A stretch of DNA of 35,809 nucleotides from an uncultured Hyphomicrobiales bacterium (lineage in GTDB: Bacteria; Pseudomonadota; Alphaproteobacteria; Rhizobiales; Xanthobacteraceae), in NCBI GenBank assembly GCA_903885555.1, contig CAISIV010000047.1:1-35809 (forward strand), given 5' to 3'. The position numbers were made by a program, and so were the translations under genes. The notes beneath the pieces are model-generated. The model saw nothing but the letters and a program-made list of their open reading frames with translations, had not been told where the DNA came from and searched no databases. Positions 8,450 to 23,926 of this stretch are shown piece by piece (the stretch's first letter is position 1; each line of letters opens with the position of its first letter).

Positions 8450-10054
8450 TCACTCCGCCAACGGCGAGCGCAGAAGGCCAACCAAAGCGCTGGTGCCGTA
8501 AAAGAAATGGCCGATCCGCAGATTTTCATCGAAGCTGTGCTGGTTGTTGTCGGGGTTGACCAACGGCACGATGACAAACGGAAGATCGAGCGCGCCCACC
8601 AGCTTGTCGGTCGGCACACTGCCGCCCATCATGCGGATGCGAACGGTCTTTGCCGGTTCGCCAGCCGAGCCGAAAGTTTTGGCCAGCGTGTCTTGCACCC
8701 AGGCGCCAACCGGTGAATTGAGCGGCGTAAAAGCAGCATCGCTGCCGCGCCTGACGGTGAGCGAGGCAATCTTGTCGTACTTCTCGCGTTCCTCGTCGGT
8801 TGGTTCGCCTTTCGACAGATAGTAGCCTTTGACGATGAGATGCTTCTCAATCAAATCGGCAAGATAAGACGGGCTTGCGCCTGGTGTCGTCCGCAAGTCG
8901 AGTTCGGCTACCGCCTTGTTGGGAATGATATTGGCGCCTTTGTCGCCGATCGCAGCCGATTCAATACCGCGAATATTCAGCGATGGATATTGCAACGCTT
9001 CCTGCAAATTGCGCCCAACCGCCTCGGGTTTGGCAACACCGACCCGCTTGAGCAACGCGGCCGTATCGTCGGGAACGGCGCTCATGACGCTGCGTTCGGA
9101 TTCAGTCAGCTTCACGCTGTCGTAATAACCGGCGACGGTGACGCGGCCGTCATCGTCCTTCATGGACGCCAGCAGCGTCGCCAGCCGCTGCGCCGGATTC
9201 GGCACATAGTTGCCGTAGTGGCCGCTGTGCAGCGGCGATTTCGGTCCGTAGACCGCCAACTGCACGACGGTATTGCCGCGATTGCCAAAAACGATGGTAG
9301 GCCGATTGCTGGCGTGCATCGGTCCGTCGTGGATCACGATTGCATCGGCCTTGAGCAAATCACGGTTGGCCTTGGCAATGACGCCGATCGTCGGCGAACC
9401 TTTTTCCTCCTCGCTATCGAGCAGAAGCTTCACATTGATCGCAGGCTCAATCCCGGCCGCCTTCAAAGCGTCGAAAGCGGTCAGAAACATCATAATCGGC
9501 CCTTTGTCATCGGATGAAGAGCGCGCGAACAGGCGCCATTCCGGATCGATTTTCTCAGTGAGCAGTCTGTTCCTGTCGATCTCCTCCCAATACGGCTGAA
9601 CACTGACGCGCGATGGCGTAAACGTCGGAGGCGGCGTCGCCCCACTATTGGCAACGCGCTTTTTCAATACTGGAGTCCAGGGACTTTTTTGCGACCACTG
9701 CTCCGGGAGAACCGGCATTCCATCGAAGTGAATGTAGAAAAGAATTGTACGGACATTCGGATTCTTGCGGCCATATTCCGCAAACACCAGCGGCTTGCCG
9801 TTGTTCGGCAATTGCTGTGTTGTAAAGCCGCGTTTGCGGAATGCAGCCTCAAGCCAGTCGGCGTTCTTGCGGATATCCTCGGCATTGATGGCGTCGTTCG
9901 GCAGCGACAGCATCTCGAAGAATTCACCGAAATTGGCCTGTGCGGTCCTTTCGATCAGCTCCTGCGAGATCGTATCGCTCTGAGCCCGGTTCGGCATGGC
10001 GGAAAGACAGCTAAAGGCAGCCAGCGCTCCACACATCAAAATGCGCGTGTTCAT
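8450..10054 (-). CDS. M20-family metallopeptidase, secreted
   Basis: This 534-aa zinc peptidase of the M20 (ArgE/DapE/carboxypeptidase) group has HFDGMP in place of the usual HxD first metal motif, then SSSDDKGP, DSEEEKGS with the catalytic and metal Glu residues, and a C-terminal metal His in NQHSFDENLR. A Sec-type signal peptide runs from MNTRILMCGALAAFS to about residue 26. The start at 10054 was chosen because GGGGG lies about 10 bases upstream and it begins the signal peptide; an ATG at 10099 would add 15 non-signal residues. Substrate is unknown; periplasmic dipeptidase activity is inferred. Confidence 0.88.
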   Translation of the reverse strand: MNTRILMCGALAAFSCLSAMPNRAQSDTISQELIERTAQANFGEFFEMLSLPNDAINAEDIRKNADWLEAAFRKRGFTTQQLPNNGKPLVFAEYGRKNPNVRTILFYIHFDGMPVLPEQWSQKSPWTPVLKKRVANSGATPPPTFTPSRVSVQPYWEEIDRNRLLTEKIDPEWRLFARSSSDDKGPIMMFLTAFDALKAAGIEPAINVKLLLDSEEEKGSPTIGVIAKANRDLLKADAIVIHDGPMHASNRPTIVFGNRGNTVVQLAVYGPKSPLHSGHYGNYVPNPAQRLATLLASMKDDDGRVTVAGYYDSVKLTESERSVMSAVPDDTAALLKRVGVAKPEAVGRNLQEALQYPSLNIRGIESAAIGDKGANIIPNKAVAELDLRTTPGASPSYLADLIEKHLIVKGYYLSKGEPTDEEREKYDKIASLTVRRGSDAAFTPLNSPVGAWVQDTLAKTFGSAGEPAKTVRIRMMGGSVPTDKLVGALDLPFVIVPLVNPDNNQHSFDENLRIGHFFYGTSALVGLLRSPLAE

Positions 10055-10129
10055 TTGGAAAGCCCCCTGTGCGCCCAGCTTCGGCAGCTTGAATACCATG
10101 AATTGGAGTATCGCCGACAGCCGTTCCCC

Positions 10130-10612
10130 TCACCACACCTCGCTCACCGCTACGCCCTCGAAAACCTCTGCGATCCGCGCGCGGGTGGCGCGCGACGTAT
10201 CCGGCGGCAGCGCGTCGAGCGCGAAGAAGCCGTGTTCAATAATCTCGTAATCCGGTTCGGGCGGCTTCTCCTGCACGAAGTCGCGCACGATGAACAAGAC
10301 GACGTGGTCGCGGCGCGACTCCCGGTTATTGAAAAACACGCCCTGCAGCTTCGGCTCGCCGGCGAGTTTGATGTTGGTCTCTTCGAACAGCTCGCGCGCC
10401 ACGGCCGAGGTGACGCTCTCGCCCTTGTCGACGCCGCCACCGGGCAGATGCCAGCCGGCGACGTAAGAGTGCTTGACCAGGAAAATGCGTCCGGTGCCGT
10501 CGATCACCATGGCGCGCACGCCCGTCGTCGTGCCGTGGGCCAGACGCCGGTAAAGATGCAACAGAGGCCGCAGAAGGGGCCAGAGTGCGTGCTGCAGCGA
10601 TTGCAATGACAT
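10130..10612 (-). CDS. Nudix hydrolase
   Basis: This 160-aa protein carries the Nudix box: GGGVDKGES followed by the RELFEET helix with its metal-binding glutamates (GX5EX7REUXEEXG pattern, last Gly replaced by Asn). Nudix enzymes cleave nucleoside diphosphates linked to another group; the substrate here is not predictable. The start at 10612 was chosen because AAGG lies about 8 bases upstream. An in-frame ATG at 10648 would add 12 residues but has a poorly spaced ribosome site. Its promoter region is shared with the divergent mbfA gene. Confidence 0.85.
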   Translation of the reverse strand: MSLQSLQHALWPLLRPLLHLYRRLAHGTTTGVRAMVIDGTGRIFLVKHSYVAGWHLPGGGVDKGESVTSAVARELFEETNIKLAGEPKLQGVFFNNRESRRDHVVLFIVRDFVQEKPPEPDYEIIEHGFFALDALPPDTSRATRARIAEVFEGVAVSEVW

Positions 10613-10690
10613 AGGCGCCTTATGACACTGGAGCTGGTAGCGAGCCATGACCCCTATGCGGGGCCTTATACCCAGGCAGCCCTTCCATCC

Positions 10691-19450: not shown

Positions 19451-21226
19451 CTAAGCCGCCGCTCGTGCGTTGCGGCGGATCACCAGGCAGGTGATGTCGT
19501 CGGCCTGCAATGTGCCGGCGGAAAAGGCTTCGACTCCGCCGATCACCGCGAGCATCAAGTCGTGCGGCGAGCGCGCCGCCGAATTCTGCGTGATGTCCAG
19601 CAGCCGTTGCACCCGGAACAGTCCGCCATCGCGGTCGAAGGCTTCGGTGATGCCGTCGGTATAGAGAAACAGCATTTCCCCTTCGCCGAGCGTGAAACTC
19701 AGTTCGGCGAAGGCTTTGTGCTCCATGACGCCGAGCGGCGGATTTCCCGAGCGTCTTAATAACTCAGCGCTGCCGTCGGCGCGCGTGATGATCGGCTCGC
19801 AGTGCCCGGCATTGACCAAAGTCACGCGGCCCGAGGCTTCGTGCAGTTCGGCGTAGATCGCCGTGACGAACATCTCGATCGGATTTTCGCGATAAAGCGA
19901 GTCGTTGACATGCGCGATGCAATCGGACGGCCGCAAGCCGGTCATCGCCACGCCGCGCAACATGGTGCGCGTCACCGCCATGAAGAACGCCGCCGCGACA
20001 CCTTTGCCCGACACATCCGCGACGACGAGGCCGAGGCGGCTGCTGTCGACCGGAAACACGTCATAGAAATCGCCGCTCACTTCGAGCGCCGGCTTCATCG
20101 ACGCGGCGATGCCGGTGTTCGCATAAGACGAGAAATCCGTCGGCAGAATTGAAGCCTGCAAAATCTGCGCGGTCTTGAGATCGTCGTCGATACGATCCTG
20201 CTTTTCTTCCAGCAGCCGGTTTTTCTCGGCAATCTCGGCGGTGCGATCGGCGACGCGCCGCTCCAGCACGCGGTTGTGACGCGCCAGCGCGGTTTCGGCC
20301 TGCCTCTGCTGCTGCCGTACGGCGACCGTCAGCAGGCCGGTGAAGGTGATCACCGCCATGAAGCCTTCGAGCAGCAGGATCGATTCGTTATCGGTCTTGC
20401 CGACGAACGAGCCGACGCCGCGCGTGGTGGCCAACACGACGATGATGGTGATCGCCGCCGACGCCAGCGTGACGCCGCGCGGACCTGATCGAAAGCCGGC
20501 CCACAGCAGCAGCGGCAGAAAGAAATAATCGACCGGATAGTGGCTCCATATTTCCAGTGCCGCGATCGCGAACACCAGAACGAGCACGACAACGGACGTA
20601 ACGATGGTTTTCCGGTCCGGCCACGGGTCGCGATACCAGGCGAGCGCCATTGCCCCGAACACGGCGATGCCGGCGGCATCGGCCAGGAAAAAGGTGATGA
20701 AGGTGATCGCCACTTCGTGATCCGGCACGAAGCCGTTGGCCCAGAGCGACAGCGTGCCGATCGCACCGCAGACGAAGGCCGCCGCCAGCGACGAGCCAAG
20801 CAGGAAGACCACCACGTCGAGCGAACGGTCGAACGGGTGCCAGGTGCGGGTGAAATAGCGCAGCGTCATCAGCGCGATCAAGGCTTCGCAGATCGAGCCG
20901 ACGCCGGTGCCGGAATTGGTCAGGATATAGTTCAGCACGGTCGTGTGCGGGTCCGACAGCAGCGGAAAGCCGTTGAAGAATTGTCCGAGGAACACCGCCG
21001 GCAGAATGCGCGGACCGAACACGAAGGTCGCGGCAACCGCGATGCCGGACGGCGGATAGATCGGGCTGATCTTGGCCGGGCCAATGCCGAATAGCACGAC
21101 GACAAGACCGGCGACGCTGTAGGCCGCCAGCACCGCGAGATTGAGCCAGATCCAGGTCAACGTGCTGCGCGGCCGGCTTTCGGCCGGCGTCAGCGAACGG
21201 TGTAGGATGGCGCTGATGTCAGTCAT
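19451..21226 (-). CDS. MASE1-SpoIIE (PP2C) serine phosphatase
   Basis: This 591-aa membrane phosphatase has an N-terminal MASE1-like sensor of about eight helices (24-306), a coiled coil (303-353, VLERRVADRTAEIAEKNRLL) and a C-terminal SpoIIE/PP2C domain (376-586). The metal Asp residues are present: SGDFYD (Asp386), ADVSGKG (Asp404), YTDG (Asp524) and ADD near 576. Such enzymes dephosphorylate STAS anti-anti-sigma factors, and the gene directly follows a STAS gene. Start choice is uncertain: ATG at 21226 has no clear ribosome site, and an in-frame TTG at 21253 would lie 9 bases from the STAS stop. Confidence 0.88.
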   Translation of the reverse strand: MTDISAILHRSLTPAESRPRSTLTWIWLNLAVLAAYSVAGLVVVLFGIGPAKISPIYPPSGIAVAATFVFGPRILPAVFLGQFFNGFPLLSDPHTTVLNYILTNSGTGVGSICEALIALMTLRYFTRTWHPFDRSLDVVVFLLGSSLAAAFVCGAIGTLSLWANGFVPDHEVAITFITFFLADAAGIAVFGAMALAWYRDPWPDRKTIVTSVVVLVLVFAIAALEIWSHYPVDYFFLPLLLWAGFRSGPRGVTLASAAITIIVVLATTRGVGSFVGKTDNESILLLEGFMAVITFTGLLTVAVRQQQRQAETALARHNRVLERRVADRTAEIAEKNRLLEEKQDRIDDDLKTAQILQASILPTDFSSYANTGIAASMKPALEVSGDFYDVFPVDSSRLGLVVADVSGKGVAAAFFMAVTRTMLRGVAMTGLRPSDCIAHVNDSLYRENPIEMFVTAIYAELHEASGRVTLVNAGHCEPIITRADGSAELLRRSGNPPLGVMEHKAFAELSFTLGEGEMLFLYTDGITEAFDRDGGLFRVQRLLDITQNSAARSPHDLMLAVIGGVEAFSAGTLQADDITCLVIRRNARAAA

Positions 21227-21262
21227 GACGGCATGACGCCGGACCACATTCAAAACGTCGTG

Positions 21263-21598
21263 TTATCGCGGCAATGCGGCGACCGCCGCCTCCACGCTGT
21301 CGTAGATCGCGAACAATTCGAGCAGGCCGCTGATATCGAAAATCTCGGCGACTTCGTCGGACATGCCGGCCAGCGCGATGGCCTTATTTTTCGCGCGTGC
21401 CTGTTTCGCCAGAATGATGAAAGACCGCAACCCGGCGCTCGAGACGTAATTCATGCCGCCCAGATCGACCACGATGTGGCCGTCACGCGACGCGACGTCG
21501 AGCACTTTCTGCTCCAGCGCCTTGGCAACCGAACTATCGACCCGGCCGACAATCTTGAGTGTCGTTGCCGAACCGATCCGGCTTTCTGTAACTTCCAT
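21263..21598 (-). CDS. STAS-domain anti-sigma factor antagonist
   Basis: This 111-aa single STAS domain of the SpoIIAA/RsbV type has the phosphorylation loop NYVSSAGLRSF, with Ser53/Ser54 at the site normally phosphorylated by the partner kinase. VVDLGGMN forms the strand before it. AGGA lies about 7 bases before the ATG. It heads the minus-strand pair with the SpoIIE phosphatase and is divergent from the permease-kinase pair across 120 bases. Role inferred: it switches between a kinase-bound and a free state according to phosphorylation. Confidence 0.9.
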   Translation of the reverse strand: MEVTESRIGSATTLKIVGRVDSSVAKALEQKVLDVASRDGHIVVDLGGMNYVSSAGLRSFIILAKQARAKNKAIALAGMSDEVAEIFDISGLLELFAIYDSVEAAVAALPR

Positions 21599-21718
21599 GG
21601 CAGTCCTAAAGATAAAATGCAGTCAGGCGATATGATCGCGCACCAGCCAACCCTATAGAGATACCCTTCCGCGCCGCAAAAGAAAATGGGATGATCGTCA
21701 CGGGACTGAGGGCGGCAC

Positions 21719-23500
21719 GTGGAAATCATCGAGAAATTGCTGAGACTTTGGCGTGGGCCGGTCGAAGAGCCTGCTGGCCGCAAGCGCCGTTCAGTCAAAC
21801 CCAGCGAGATCACCTACGGCATCGACGACAAGCCGCCGGCTTATGTCGTCTGGGTGGCTGCCATCCAGCACGTGCTGCTGGCCAGCGTGACCACGATTTT
21901 CCCGCTGCTGGTGCTGGAAGCCGCCCACGCCTCGCACCAGACCGTTCTGGAGGTGATGTCGGGCTCCCTGCTCGCGCTCGGCTTCGGCACTATTCTGCTG
22001 TGCTTGAAGTCGCAGGATCTGGGCTCAAGCTCCCTGATGCCCGCAGCCTTTTCCGGCGTCTACTTCACCGTCACCGTAGTCGCCGCCAAGCAAGGCGGCC
22101 TGCCGCTGGTCGCCGGCATGACGATCTTCGCCGGCTTGGTGCAGCTTCTGATCGGGTACGGCGTTCAGCGTTTGCGGCCCTTTTTACCGACCGAAATCGC
22201 CGGCTTCGCCATGCTGATGAGTGGCCTGACACTCGGCGTCATCGGCTTCAATCTCATGACCGGCGTTTCCGCCGCCATCGACACCATGAACCCCAGCATG
22301 GGTACAGGGGCTTTGCTCGGTGTTGCCTGCCTGCTGGTCATGATCGCCCTCTACGTCTGGGGCGTAGCGCGGCTGCGGCTCTATGTCATCCTCATCGTGC
22401 TGGCTGGCGGCTATGCCGCCGGCGCCGCGCTCGGGCTGGTGCCTTTCAACGAGGTCAAGTCGGCCTCGCTGTTCATCGAGCCGCCGATGCCCAAGCCCTC
22501 CTGGCCGACTTTCGCCGTAGACCTGATGCTGCCCTTCGCGATCGCGGCGATCGCCACCTCGCTGCGGGCCATCGGCGACTTCACCAGCATGCAGAAGATC
22601 AACGACAGCCGTTGGCAGCGCGCCGACATGGGTTCGATCCGCCGGGGCCTGATATCCAACGGCATCGGCATGATGATCGGCGGCGCACTGGGCAGCGTCG
22701 GCTTGAGCACGTCCTCGTCCTCGGTCGGCCTGTCAGTAACGACCGGCGTGACGTCGCGTTCGGTCGGCTTTGCCACCGGCGTGGTCTTTATCGTGCTCGC
22801 CTTCCTGCCGGCCGTGCATGAGCTGATCATCCTCGCGCCCCGTCCGGTTTTCGGCGCGGCGCTGGTGTTCACGTCGTGCTTCATCATCGTCAACGGCATG
22901 CAGGCGATGGTAAGCCGCCTGATGGACGCGCGCCGCACGCTGGTGATCAGTGTCGGTCTGCTGCTGTCGTTCAGCCGTTTCCTGTTTCCCGCCTTCTACC
23001 AATCGGCGCCGGACTACCTGCAGCCGGCGGTGGCCTCGCCGCTGGTGGTCGGCCTCATCGGCGCACTGCTGCTCAACCTCGTCTTCCGCATCGGCATCAA
23101 GAAATCGGTGACCATCGTGGTTGCGCCCGGCGCCGACGCGCTTACCAAGCTGGAGAAGTTCGCCGAACACCAAGGCGGTGTCTGGGGTGCGCGCCGCGAC
23201 GTCATCGATCGCGCCGTGCGCGCCATGATCGAGACCTCGGAATGCCTCGATCTTCTCATCGAGCCGGGCACGTCGGCCAAGGTGACCATGACCTTCGACG
23301 AATTCTGGCTCGATGTCCTCGTCGAATACGAAGGCAAACCGCTGATCACCAGCGCCGCCGCTCCGAGCGCCGAAGAACTTTTCGCCGACGAAAGCCAGCT
23401 CACCCGCCTCGGCGCAATCATGATAAGACGTCAAGCGACGAAACTGACCACCGACACCGATGGAGCGATGCAACGCATCCATCTCGGCTTCGAACATTGA
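21719..23500 (+). CDS. NCS2-like permease fused to a degenerate HATPase-like domain
   Basis: This 593-aa protein has an NCS2 (xanthine/uracil permease) core at about 40-460, with the TM1 QH pair at 50-51 and the LGSSSLMPAAFSG re-entrant segment. The NCS2 signature in TM10, normally Q/E-N-x-G, reads S334-S335-V-G, and the TM8 Glu aligns with Arg283. A soluble tail (462-593) aligns along its length with the next gene's RsbW-type kinase: RAMIETSECL for the N-box, YEGKPL for DDGKPF, LGAIMIRR for LGIHLLRK and QRIHLGFEH for NELSFGIQI, but without the catalytic Asn. The start is GTG with GAGGG about 6 bases upstream. A receptor or regulator role is inferred. Confidence 0.85.
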   Translation: MEIIEKLLRLWRGPVEEPAGRKRRSVKPSEITYGIDDKPPAYVVWVAAIQHVLLASVTTIFPLLVLEAAHASHQTVLEVMSGSLLALGFGTILLCLKSQDLGSSSLMPAAFSGVYFTVTVVAAKQGGLPLVAGMTIFAGLVQLLIGYGVQRLRPFLPTEIAGFAMLMSGLTLGVIGFNLMTGVSAAIDTMNPSMGTGALLGVACLLVMIALYVWGVARLRLYVILIVLAGGYAAGAALGLVPFNEVKSASLFIEPPMPKPSWPTFAVDLMLPFAIAAIATSLRAIGDFTSMQKINDSRWQRADMGSIRRGLISNGIGMMIGGALGSVGLSTSSSSVGLSVTTGVTSRSVGFATGVVFIVLAFLPAVHELIILAPRPVFGAALVFTSCFIIVNGMQAMVSRLMDARRTLVISVGLLLSFSRFLFPAFYQSAPDYLQPAVASPLVVGLIGALLLNLVFRIGIKKSVTIVVAPGADALTKLEKFAEHQGGVWGARRDVIDRAVRAMIETSECLDLLIEPGTSAKVTMTFDEFWLDVLVEYEGKPLITSAAAPSAEELFADESQLTRLGAIMIRRQATKLTTDTDGAMQRIHLGFEH

Positions 23501-23506
23501 GCGCCA

Positions 23507-23926
23507 ATGGAACGTGAAAGCCTCACGATTGAGGTCGCCAACAGGTTCGAGGACATTCCGCGCGCCAACAAGCGCATTTCGGCGTTCTGCTCGGACCGCA
23601 GCGTCCCCACCAAACTCCTGAACCGCTTCAGCCTGTCGCTGGATGAGGTCCTCACCAACATCATCACGCACGGCATCGGCGACAAAGGCGACCGCGAAAT
23701 CGCGGTACGGATCGACATCGACGACGATTATTTGTCGGCGACCGTCAGCGACGACGGCAAGCCGTTCGACCCGCTGGCGCAGGCTTTGCCGGACATCCAC
23801 GCGCCCATCGAACAGCGCAAAGTCGGCGGGCTCGGCATTCACCTGCTGCGCAAGATGATGGATAAAGTCGATTATCGTCGCATCGGCGACCGCAACGAAC
23901 TCAGTTTCGGAATTCAGATCAAGTAG
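23507..23926 (+). CDS. RsbW-like ATP-binding protein (HATPase_c_2 anti-sigma/kinase)
   Basis: This 139-aa GHKL-fold kinase of the RsbW/SpoIIAB type has the N-box LDEVLTNIITHG (Glu47, Asn51, His55), the ATP-lid motif DDGKPFDP (82-89) and the glycine box GGLGIHLL (107-114), all intact. Such proteins phosphorylate STAS partners and may bind a sigma factor. The gene starts 6 bases after the permease stop. Its 3' end overlaps the convergent TPM gene by 13 bases. Together with the STAS and SpoIIE genes it completes a partner-switching set. No sigma factor gene is in the window. Confidence 0.9.
   Translation: MERESLTIEVANRFEDIPRANKRISAFCSDRSVPTKLLNRFSLSLDEVLTNIITHGIGDKGDREIAVRIDIDDDYLSATVSDDGKPFDPLAQALPDIHAPIEQRKVGGLGIHLLRKMMDKVDYRRIGDRNELSFGIQIK

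Follow-up and report, generated by a model that had tools for sequence, protein, structure and literature searches.

A 35,809-nucleotide stretch of DNA from an uncultured Hyphomicrobiales bacterium (hereafter the window; contig CAISIV010000047.1 of assembly GCA_903885555.1) carries a four-gene module in which a SpoIIE-type phosphatase, a STAS protein and an RsbW-type kinase accompany a permease of the NCS2 family. The module is defined by its gene content, by the recurrent association of these genes in other genomes, by an altered substrate site in the permease and by a C-terminal permease tail that is, from profile and motif comparisons, a degenerate RsbW-like (HATPase_c_2) domain with a lost ATP site. 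This tail, which an earlier sequence-only reading of the same DNA did not mention, is the most important feature of the locus: as an RsbW-like domain it provides a specific link between switch and permease. Since the tail looks like an inactive version of the kinase that belongs to the switch, the transporter may come under the switch's direct control. The chances are about even that the module is a sigma-free partner switch whose output is a membrane protein of the permease family.

The tail and the substrate site of the permease

The tail of the window permease, about 130 amino acids (aa) long, has no Pfam or NCBIfam match above cut-off. When 73 tails were aligned as a profile with 28 RsbW-type kinases, hhalign gave a probability of 97.6% over 128 columns (P=3.7e-12). 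A first run with 22 tails and 10 kinases gave a probability of 95.7 and a score of 52.7 over 119 columns; the controls belong to this smaller set and not to the larger comparison, and they scored 22.1 at most (mean 11.6) for 100 column-shuffled kinase profiles, 12.2 for reversed kinases, 13.4 for STAS and 11.3 for SpoIIE. Eleven tails taken only from loci devoid of switch genes score 54.1 against the kinases. When 28 tails were scanned one by one, the Pfam HATPase_c_2 model, which is independent of this analysis, matched six (best 8.1e-5) and the next family three; the window's own tail is not one of the six.

The tails differ from the kinases in the three boxes of the ATP site, the N, D and G boxes of RsbW. 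The N-box Asn is present in 28/28 kinases and 0/73 tails, and the D-box Asp in 23/28 kinases and 0/73 tails, these counts being biased towards intact motifs on the kinase side by the use of a kinase-built profile to choose the 28 sequences. At the D-box position, 72 tails have Tyr, Trp, His or Phe, and 12 of the 73 have an Asp one column further on. The GGLG motif was found in none of the 73 tails. A low-confidence model of the tail, built from three sequences (pLDDT 52.6), has the order strand-helix-helix-strand-strand-helix-helix-strand-strand, which is that of RsbW. Ranks 1–18 of its Foldseek list are RsbV/RsbW, SpoIIAB and anti-SigF complex chains; this list is supporting only, because no match reaches 1e-3. 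A single-sequence AlphaFold model of the whole permease (pLDDT 41) was set aside.

The membrane part of the permease contains a Xan_ur_permease domain with sequence likeness to the UraA and UapA structures, and the Gln of NCS2 transmembrane segment 1 (TM1) is conserved in the tailed permeases. In UapA, Glu356 (TM8) and Gln408 (TM10) bind purine and are irreplaceable according to the excerpts of PMC4162363 used here. Their UraA equivalents are Glu241 and Glu290 (numbering checked). Ordinary NCS2 permeases of the same order have Glu in TM8 and Gln in TM10 in 20/20 cases, whereas the TM8 Glu and the TM10 Gln/Glu are both missing in 74/74 tailed permeases. These proteins have Asp (32), Arg (25) or other residues at the TM8 position and Ser (28), Ala (23), Gly (14) or others at the TM10 position (Arg283 and Ser334 in the window); one of the substrate-site alignments, of 45 rows, takes in two rows without a tail in frame. 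The tailed permease may be a carrier of something other than a nucleobase, or a non-transporting receptor. A plain purine permease or purine receptor was set aside owing to the altered TM8 and TM10 residues, and the wording of the sequence-only reading, which had spoken of a purine-permease-like receptor, is unsupported because the side chains chiefly responsible for purine binding are substituted throughout the aligned set. In favour of a purine link, one tailed copy from Azospirillum lies beside guaD/puuD and the cluster of Candidatus Thiodictyon syntrophicum (both described below) is followed by genes of the xanthine-dehydrogenase family. Three tailed permeases (L045, L053 and L088) have long N-terminal extensions without Pfam match, which are probably frame read-through.

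The switch proteins and their locus

Kinase, phosphatase and STAS protein are all present in the window with significant domain matches in a Pfam scan of its proteins (Table 1), and the kinase is intact, as the sequence-only reading had it. The N, D and G boxes of the kinase read DEVLTN, SDDGKPFDP and GGLG, and its sequence matches RsbW (6m36_A, 4.7e-07) and SpoIIAB. The STAS protein has an SSAGLR loop with a candidate phosphoserine, Ser53 or Ser54, in NYVSSAGLR; Ser54 is invariant in the 13/13 STAS proteins aligned. The phosphatase carries a SpoIIE domain of the PP2C type, and its probable start is the ATG at 21226, giving 591 aa, because this Met is common to the two nearest named relatives (L003 and L004) and the residues that precede it diverge in L004. 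Judged by these motifs, the three proteins look functional.

The source genome (4.27 Mb in 320 contigs) holds no second free STAS protein and no comparable SpoIIE match according to profile searches. SpoIIE gave two matches, 8.4e-54 at this locus and 1.1e-5 elsewhere, and STAS also two, 1.9e-17 at this locus and 3.6e-5 elsewhere; the other proteins are, by eye, a PP2C-protein kinase and an MlaE-type fusion. HATPase_c_2 gave eleven, the best at this locus (9.3e-23) and the next (8.0e-9) in what appears by eye to be a sensor-kinase-like protein.

Table 1. Features of the module in the window
Feature	Coordinates	Strand	Basis
MASE1-SpoIIE (RsbU-type) membrane phosphatase	19451..21226 (ORF readable from TTG 21253)	-	PF05231 4.6e-36; PF07228 4.7e-53
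RsbV/SpoIIAA-type single-domain STAS protein, 111 aa	21263..21598	-	PF01740 4.4e-18; TIGR00377 above cut-off
Divergent intergenic region, 120 bp	21599..21718		Alignment with L003 and L004
NCS2/SLC23-family membrane domain of permease, aa 1-462	21719..23104	+	PF00860 1.6e-42 (aa 46-417)
Putative pseudo-RsbW (degenerate HATPase_c_2) C-terminal tail, aa 463-593	23105..23500	+	hhalign P=3.7e-12; same polypeptide as permease
RsbW/SpoIIAB-type HATPase_c_2 serine kinase, 139 aa	23507..23926	+	PF13581 2.8e-23

The phosphatase and STAS genes are adjacent on the minus strand, divergent from the permease and kinase genes on the plus strand; the whole permease open reading frame (ORF) spans 21719-23500 (+) from a GTG start and is separated from the kinase gene by 6 bases. 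This arrangement and this gap, both proposed in the sequence-only reading, agree with the coordinates and domain matches. Its further claim that no sigma factor lies nearby also held, a Pfam scan of 29 distinct window proteins having found none, with a few small or edge ORFs outside the scan. The nearest named relatives, two uncultured Rhizobiales metagenome-assembled genomes that are ~90% identical over the permease, share all four genes in the same order. The grouping is thus more than chance, its order being shared by these relatives and the set recurring elsewhere in other orders. Within the intergenic region, a block upstream of the permease (21655-21700) is strongly conserved among these three sequences and is a possible promoter or leader element. 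The upstream neighbours of the module are catabolic and transporter-binding genes (TctC, amidohydrolases) and those downstream encode TPM and LemA proteins, according to Pfam.

Linkage and distribution of the tailed permeases

Seventy-three loci of the tailed family were read (the window, L003, L004, L035-L054, L085-L104, L136-L139 and L140-L165; L135 was dropped as identical to L003). They include L054, whose tail is cut off by a contig end, and the weak and distant L102 and L103; L162 was counted as unlinked, its 917-aa neighbour having only a weak HATPase match (9e-5). The loci came from the 21 best places of one permease search (own place excluded), the best places of a class sample, the matches in a genus sample and every tailed place in 199 relatives; G470:C1 and G756:C99 were the only weaker class-sample places (about 1e-83 and above) to be included. 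The top 20 places without a tail in the first of these searches, which are ordinary NCS2 permeases, served as controls.

The permease has all three partners within about 7 kb in 17 of the 73 loci (the window, L003, L004, L036, L043, L044, L046-L049, L095, L136-L139, L141 and L142) and STAS alone in three (L053, L085 and L144), whereas partners were found at none of the 20 ordinary NCS2 loci (Fisher, p=0.019 for all three partners and p=0.005 for any partner). The order of the window, SpoIIE-STAS divergent from permease-kinase, is identical in L003 and L004; other orders are permease-STAS-kinase (L036, L142), SpoIIE-kinase-STAS-permease (L095, L141) and kinase-STAS-permease-SpoIIE (L136-L138). 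A tree was built from the permease part alone by a quick search and has several long branches; on it, the presence of all three partners requires 8 changes, at least 6 of them forced by well-supported branches, so that the linkage has been gained or lost repeatedly. Among the linked loci, STAS, kinase and tailed permease are constant while the phosphatase differs in its input part, which is MASE1 in the window, a receiver domain in L036 and L095, and HAMP plus a Cache match below threshold in L048. Such a pattern is that of a constant core and output fitted with exchangeable inputs.

Five linked loci have a fused kinase. In L048 (L048:2920-4074), an RsbW-type domain follows a membrane part that by eye resembles an ABC permease and has no Pfam match; similar fused HATPase frames occur in L043, L044, L046 and L047, and a gene for a family-3 solute-binding protein lies alongside in L043, L044 and L048, the three of these loci scanned. 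In L136, L137 and L138, which belong to the same genus, another STAS-kinase pair (about 9750-10650) is oriented divergently to the permease module.

At E<=1e-100, the family permease is present in 6/43 genomes of the genus sample, 15/385 of the class sample and 4/398 of the phylum sample, all four carriers in the last belonging to the window's own class, Alphaproteobacteria. The family spans many families of this class, plus one plasmid case in Gammaproteobacteria. All four genes occur in 6/6 genus genomes with a full-length permease, the seventh tailed genome of this sample (G814) having only a permease fragment. A tail match was obtained in 26 of the 199 relatives. An RsbV-type STAS protein (E<=1e-15) is found in 25 of these 26 versus 13 of the 173 others, and SpoIIE (E<=1e-20) in 25/26 versus 22/173; the Fisher values, 3e-21 and 9e-18, treat the genomes without kinship correction, and the cross-table assumes that the tail, STAS and SpoIIE searches covered the same 199 genomes, those without matches being partly listed. 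Of 27 tailed genomes chosen by hand, which overlap in part with these, 26 gave a STAS match. At the level of loci, the 37 tailed places in the 199 relatives comprise 9 with all three partners, one with STAS only and 27 with none. The sequence-only reading, which rare co-occurrence of the four genes in related genomes would have refuted, is thus mostly borne out, by the full-length carriers of the genus and by the 25/26 carriers with STAS and SpoIIE genes somewhere in the genome, and partly contradicted, by these 27 places.

Full-length tailed permeases also occur in three named plasmid records. The plasmid of Candidatus Thiodictyon syntrophicum, the Gammaproteobacterial case, has two of them and a third, truncated copy (L175:15061-15585, NZ_CP020371.1) that consists only of the permease end and the RsbW-like tail. 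This copy is directly followed by STAS and then by a binding protein, SpoIIE and a kinase. In the records of Azospirillum thermophilum, with two copies, and Pseudoroseomonas cervicalis, with one, the stretches read contained no partner genes. A pair of genes for an ECF-type sigma factor and a ChrR anti-sigma factor (L174:33415-34706, NZ_CP029358.1) lies ~1.9 kb (two genes) from one Azospirillum tailed permease; no sign of a connection between this pair and the permease was found.

Proposed mechanism, alternatives and known systems

From these data, a partner switch with the permease as its output could operate as follows. The SpoIIE phosphatase, receiving its input through MASE1, would dephosphorylate the STAS protein, which the RsbW-type kinase would rephosphorylate, a chemistry presumed from the protein families. 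Unphosphorylated STAS would have two possible partners of RsbW fold, the live kinase and the dead tail of the permease. The tail would bind STAS without being able to phosphorylate and release it, and this docking would set the transport or signalling state of the permease. In its simplest form, the model has live RsbW and dead RsbW tail competing for dephosphorylated STAS. Tentatively, and with somewhat less confidence than the permease output itself, the module may represent a new class of output, i.e. a transporter-fold receptor with a pseudokinase tail, in which STAS alternates between a live and a dead kinase at the membrane.

Several observations weigh against this model. As regards the tail, its structural model has low confidence (pLDDT 52.6) and a best Foldseek E of 9.3e-3, its profile retrieved no RsbW from the PDB sequences, and the N-box Glu is retained in 31/73 tails, including that of the window. 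As regards linkage, no partner is nearby in 53 of the 73 loci (some cut by contig ends), and only one of the three plasmid records with tailed permeases is linked to a switch. The fused kinases (L043, L044 and L046-L048) lack the D-box Asp in 5/5 cases, and their activity is doubtful because of this replacement. In G814, a 99% complete genome that may be a real exception, a contig end truncates the permease fragment, and neither STAS nor SpoIIE gave a match anywhere in the genome; in G307, also tailed, no STAS match was found. Lastly, of the six unlinked tailed genomes whose STAS locus was read, five have a full switch at another locus (L166-L168, L172 and L173), the STAS locus of the sixth (L171) having STAS and kinase only. 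Those of these distant loci that are annotated constitute a second type of switch locus and stand beside other transporters: MFS proteins in L166, L167 and L171, of ~663-674 aa with an N-terminal extension of ~260 aa in all three, and a Na/Pi cotransporter together with an ABC_sub_bind protein in L167 and L171; L166 also encodes a guanylate-cyclase-kinase fusion. With the switch located elsewhere, beside other transporters, its main target in such genomes may be something other than the tailed permease. A Na/Pi-cotransporter family protein (PF02690) recurs beside switch genes, at L036:9738-11330, L049:4447-6066, L167:13176-14807 and L171:4034-5668.

The permease might instead be the sensor, a ligand in the altered NCS2 domain moving the tail, which would pair with the kinase or hold STAS and so set signalling to an unlinked regulator. 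RsbW proteins form dimers. This alternative, possible although rather unlikely, is favoured by the altered substrate site, which fits a receptor, by the gap of 6 bases between permease and kinase, and by the fused-kinase loci, where transporter parts (ABC-permease-like by eye, with a family-3 binding protein) would feed a kinase. The STAS protein RbaV of Rhodobacter capsulatus, which acts through targets as yet unnamed in the excerpts of PMC3999984, is in line with it too. However, the varied phosphatase domains already supply an input, STAS and not the kinase neighbours the permease in L095, L141 and L136-L139, and the neighbours scanned in L036 and L048, the two linked loci covered in this respect, included no DNA-binding regulator. 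That the tail is simply a structural domain of this permease clade, with linkage due to common regulation or descent and not to contact, is improbable. Unlinked members, which make up the majority of the loci, carry this tail too, its ATP site lost in the same way, but an RsbW-like domain belongs to a class that binds STAS proteins, and the genome-level co-occurrence with STAS extends to most unlinked members. Still less credible is that the permease is a passenger of an ordinary partner switch whose target is a distant regulator. Genomes without tailed permease do encode STAS (13/173) and SpoIIE (22/173), and switches with no known sigma target exist (PMC3999984, in the excerpts used); yet the supposed passenger bears an RsbW-like tail, and its linkage is repeated in different orders, in all six full-length genus carriers and in the Gammaproteobacterial case.

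Judged from its components, the module is a partner switch; the fourth of them separates it from those that regulate sigma factors. It shares with the RsbU/RsbV/RsbW and SpoIIE/SpoIIAA/SpoIIAB switches of Bacillus subtilis the same three protein classes with intact motifs, but here no sigma factor was found nearby, and a permease whose RsbW-like tail is dead joins them as fourth member. The closest studied case is RbaV/RbaW/RbaY of R. capsulatus, likewise an alphaproteobacterial switch with no identified sigma factor, in which RbaV itself was judged to be the output determinant, with its target unnamed; no permease is reported to adjoin rbaVW in the excerpts of PMC3999984, in contrast to the locus described here. 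According to the same excerpts, several bacteria have partner switches for which no sigma factor is known and the STAS target is often undefined. The present locus offers a specific candidate for such a target, a permease with a fused domain of the STAS-binding class, and the tailed family could supply the target that is missing for switches without a sigma factor, that of RbaV among them. In the SLC26/SulP transporters, STAS is fused to the transporter (PMC8256260, excerpts), whereas here the kinase-like partner is fused and STAS is separate; if the proposed mechanism is true, the module would be the mirror image of these STAS-tailed proteins, and a sporulation-type switch would control a transporter or receptor post-translationally. 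With the NCS2/NAT proteins UraA, UapA and XanQ, the tailed permeases share the Pfam family, the sequence likeness to the UraA and UapA structures and the TM1 Gln, but they differ in the TM8 and TM10 residues (compared with the excerpts of PMC4162363) and in the extra tail. The terms STAS and HATPase are absent from the text of PMC6597760, a review of transporter tails, and the open-licence literature searched gave no description of a permease-linked partner switch, in agreement with the view of the sequence-only reading that this is not a well-described system. Of its overall interpretation, the complete switch beside a permease-like protein, with no sigma factor near, is supported, and the purine-receptor wording is not.

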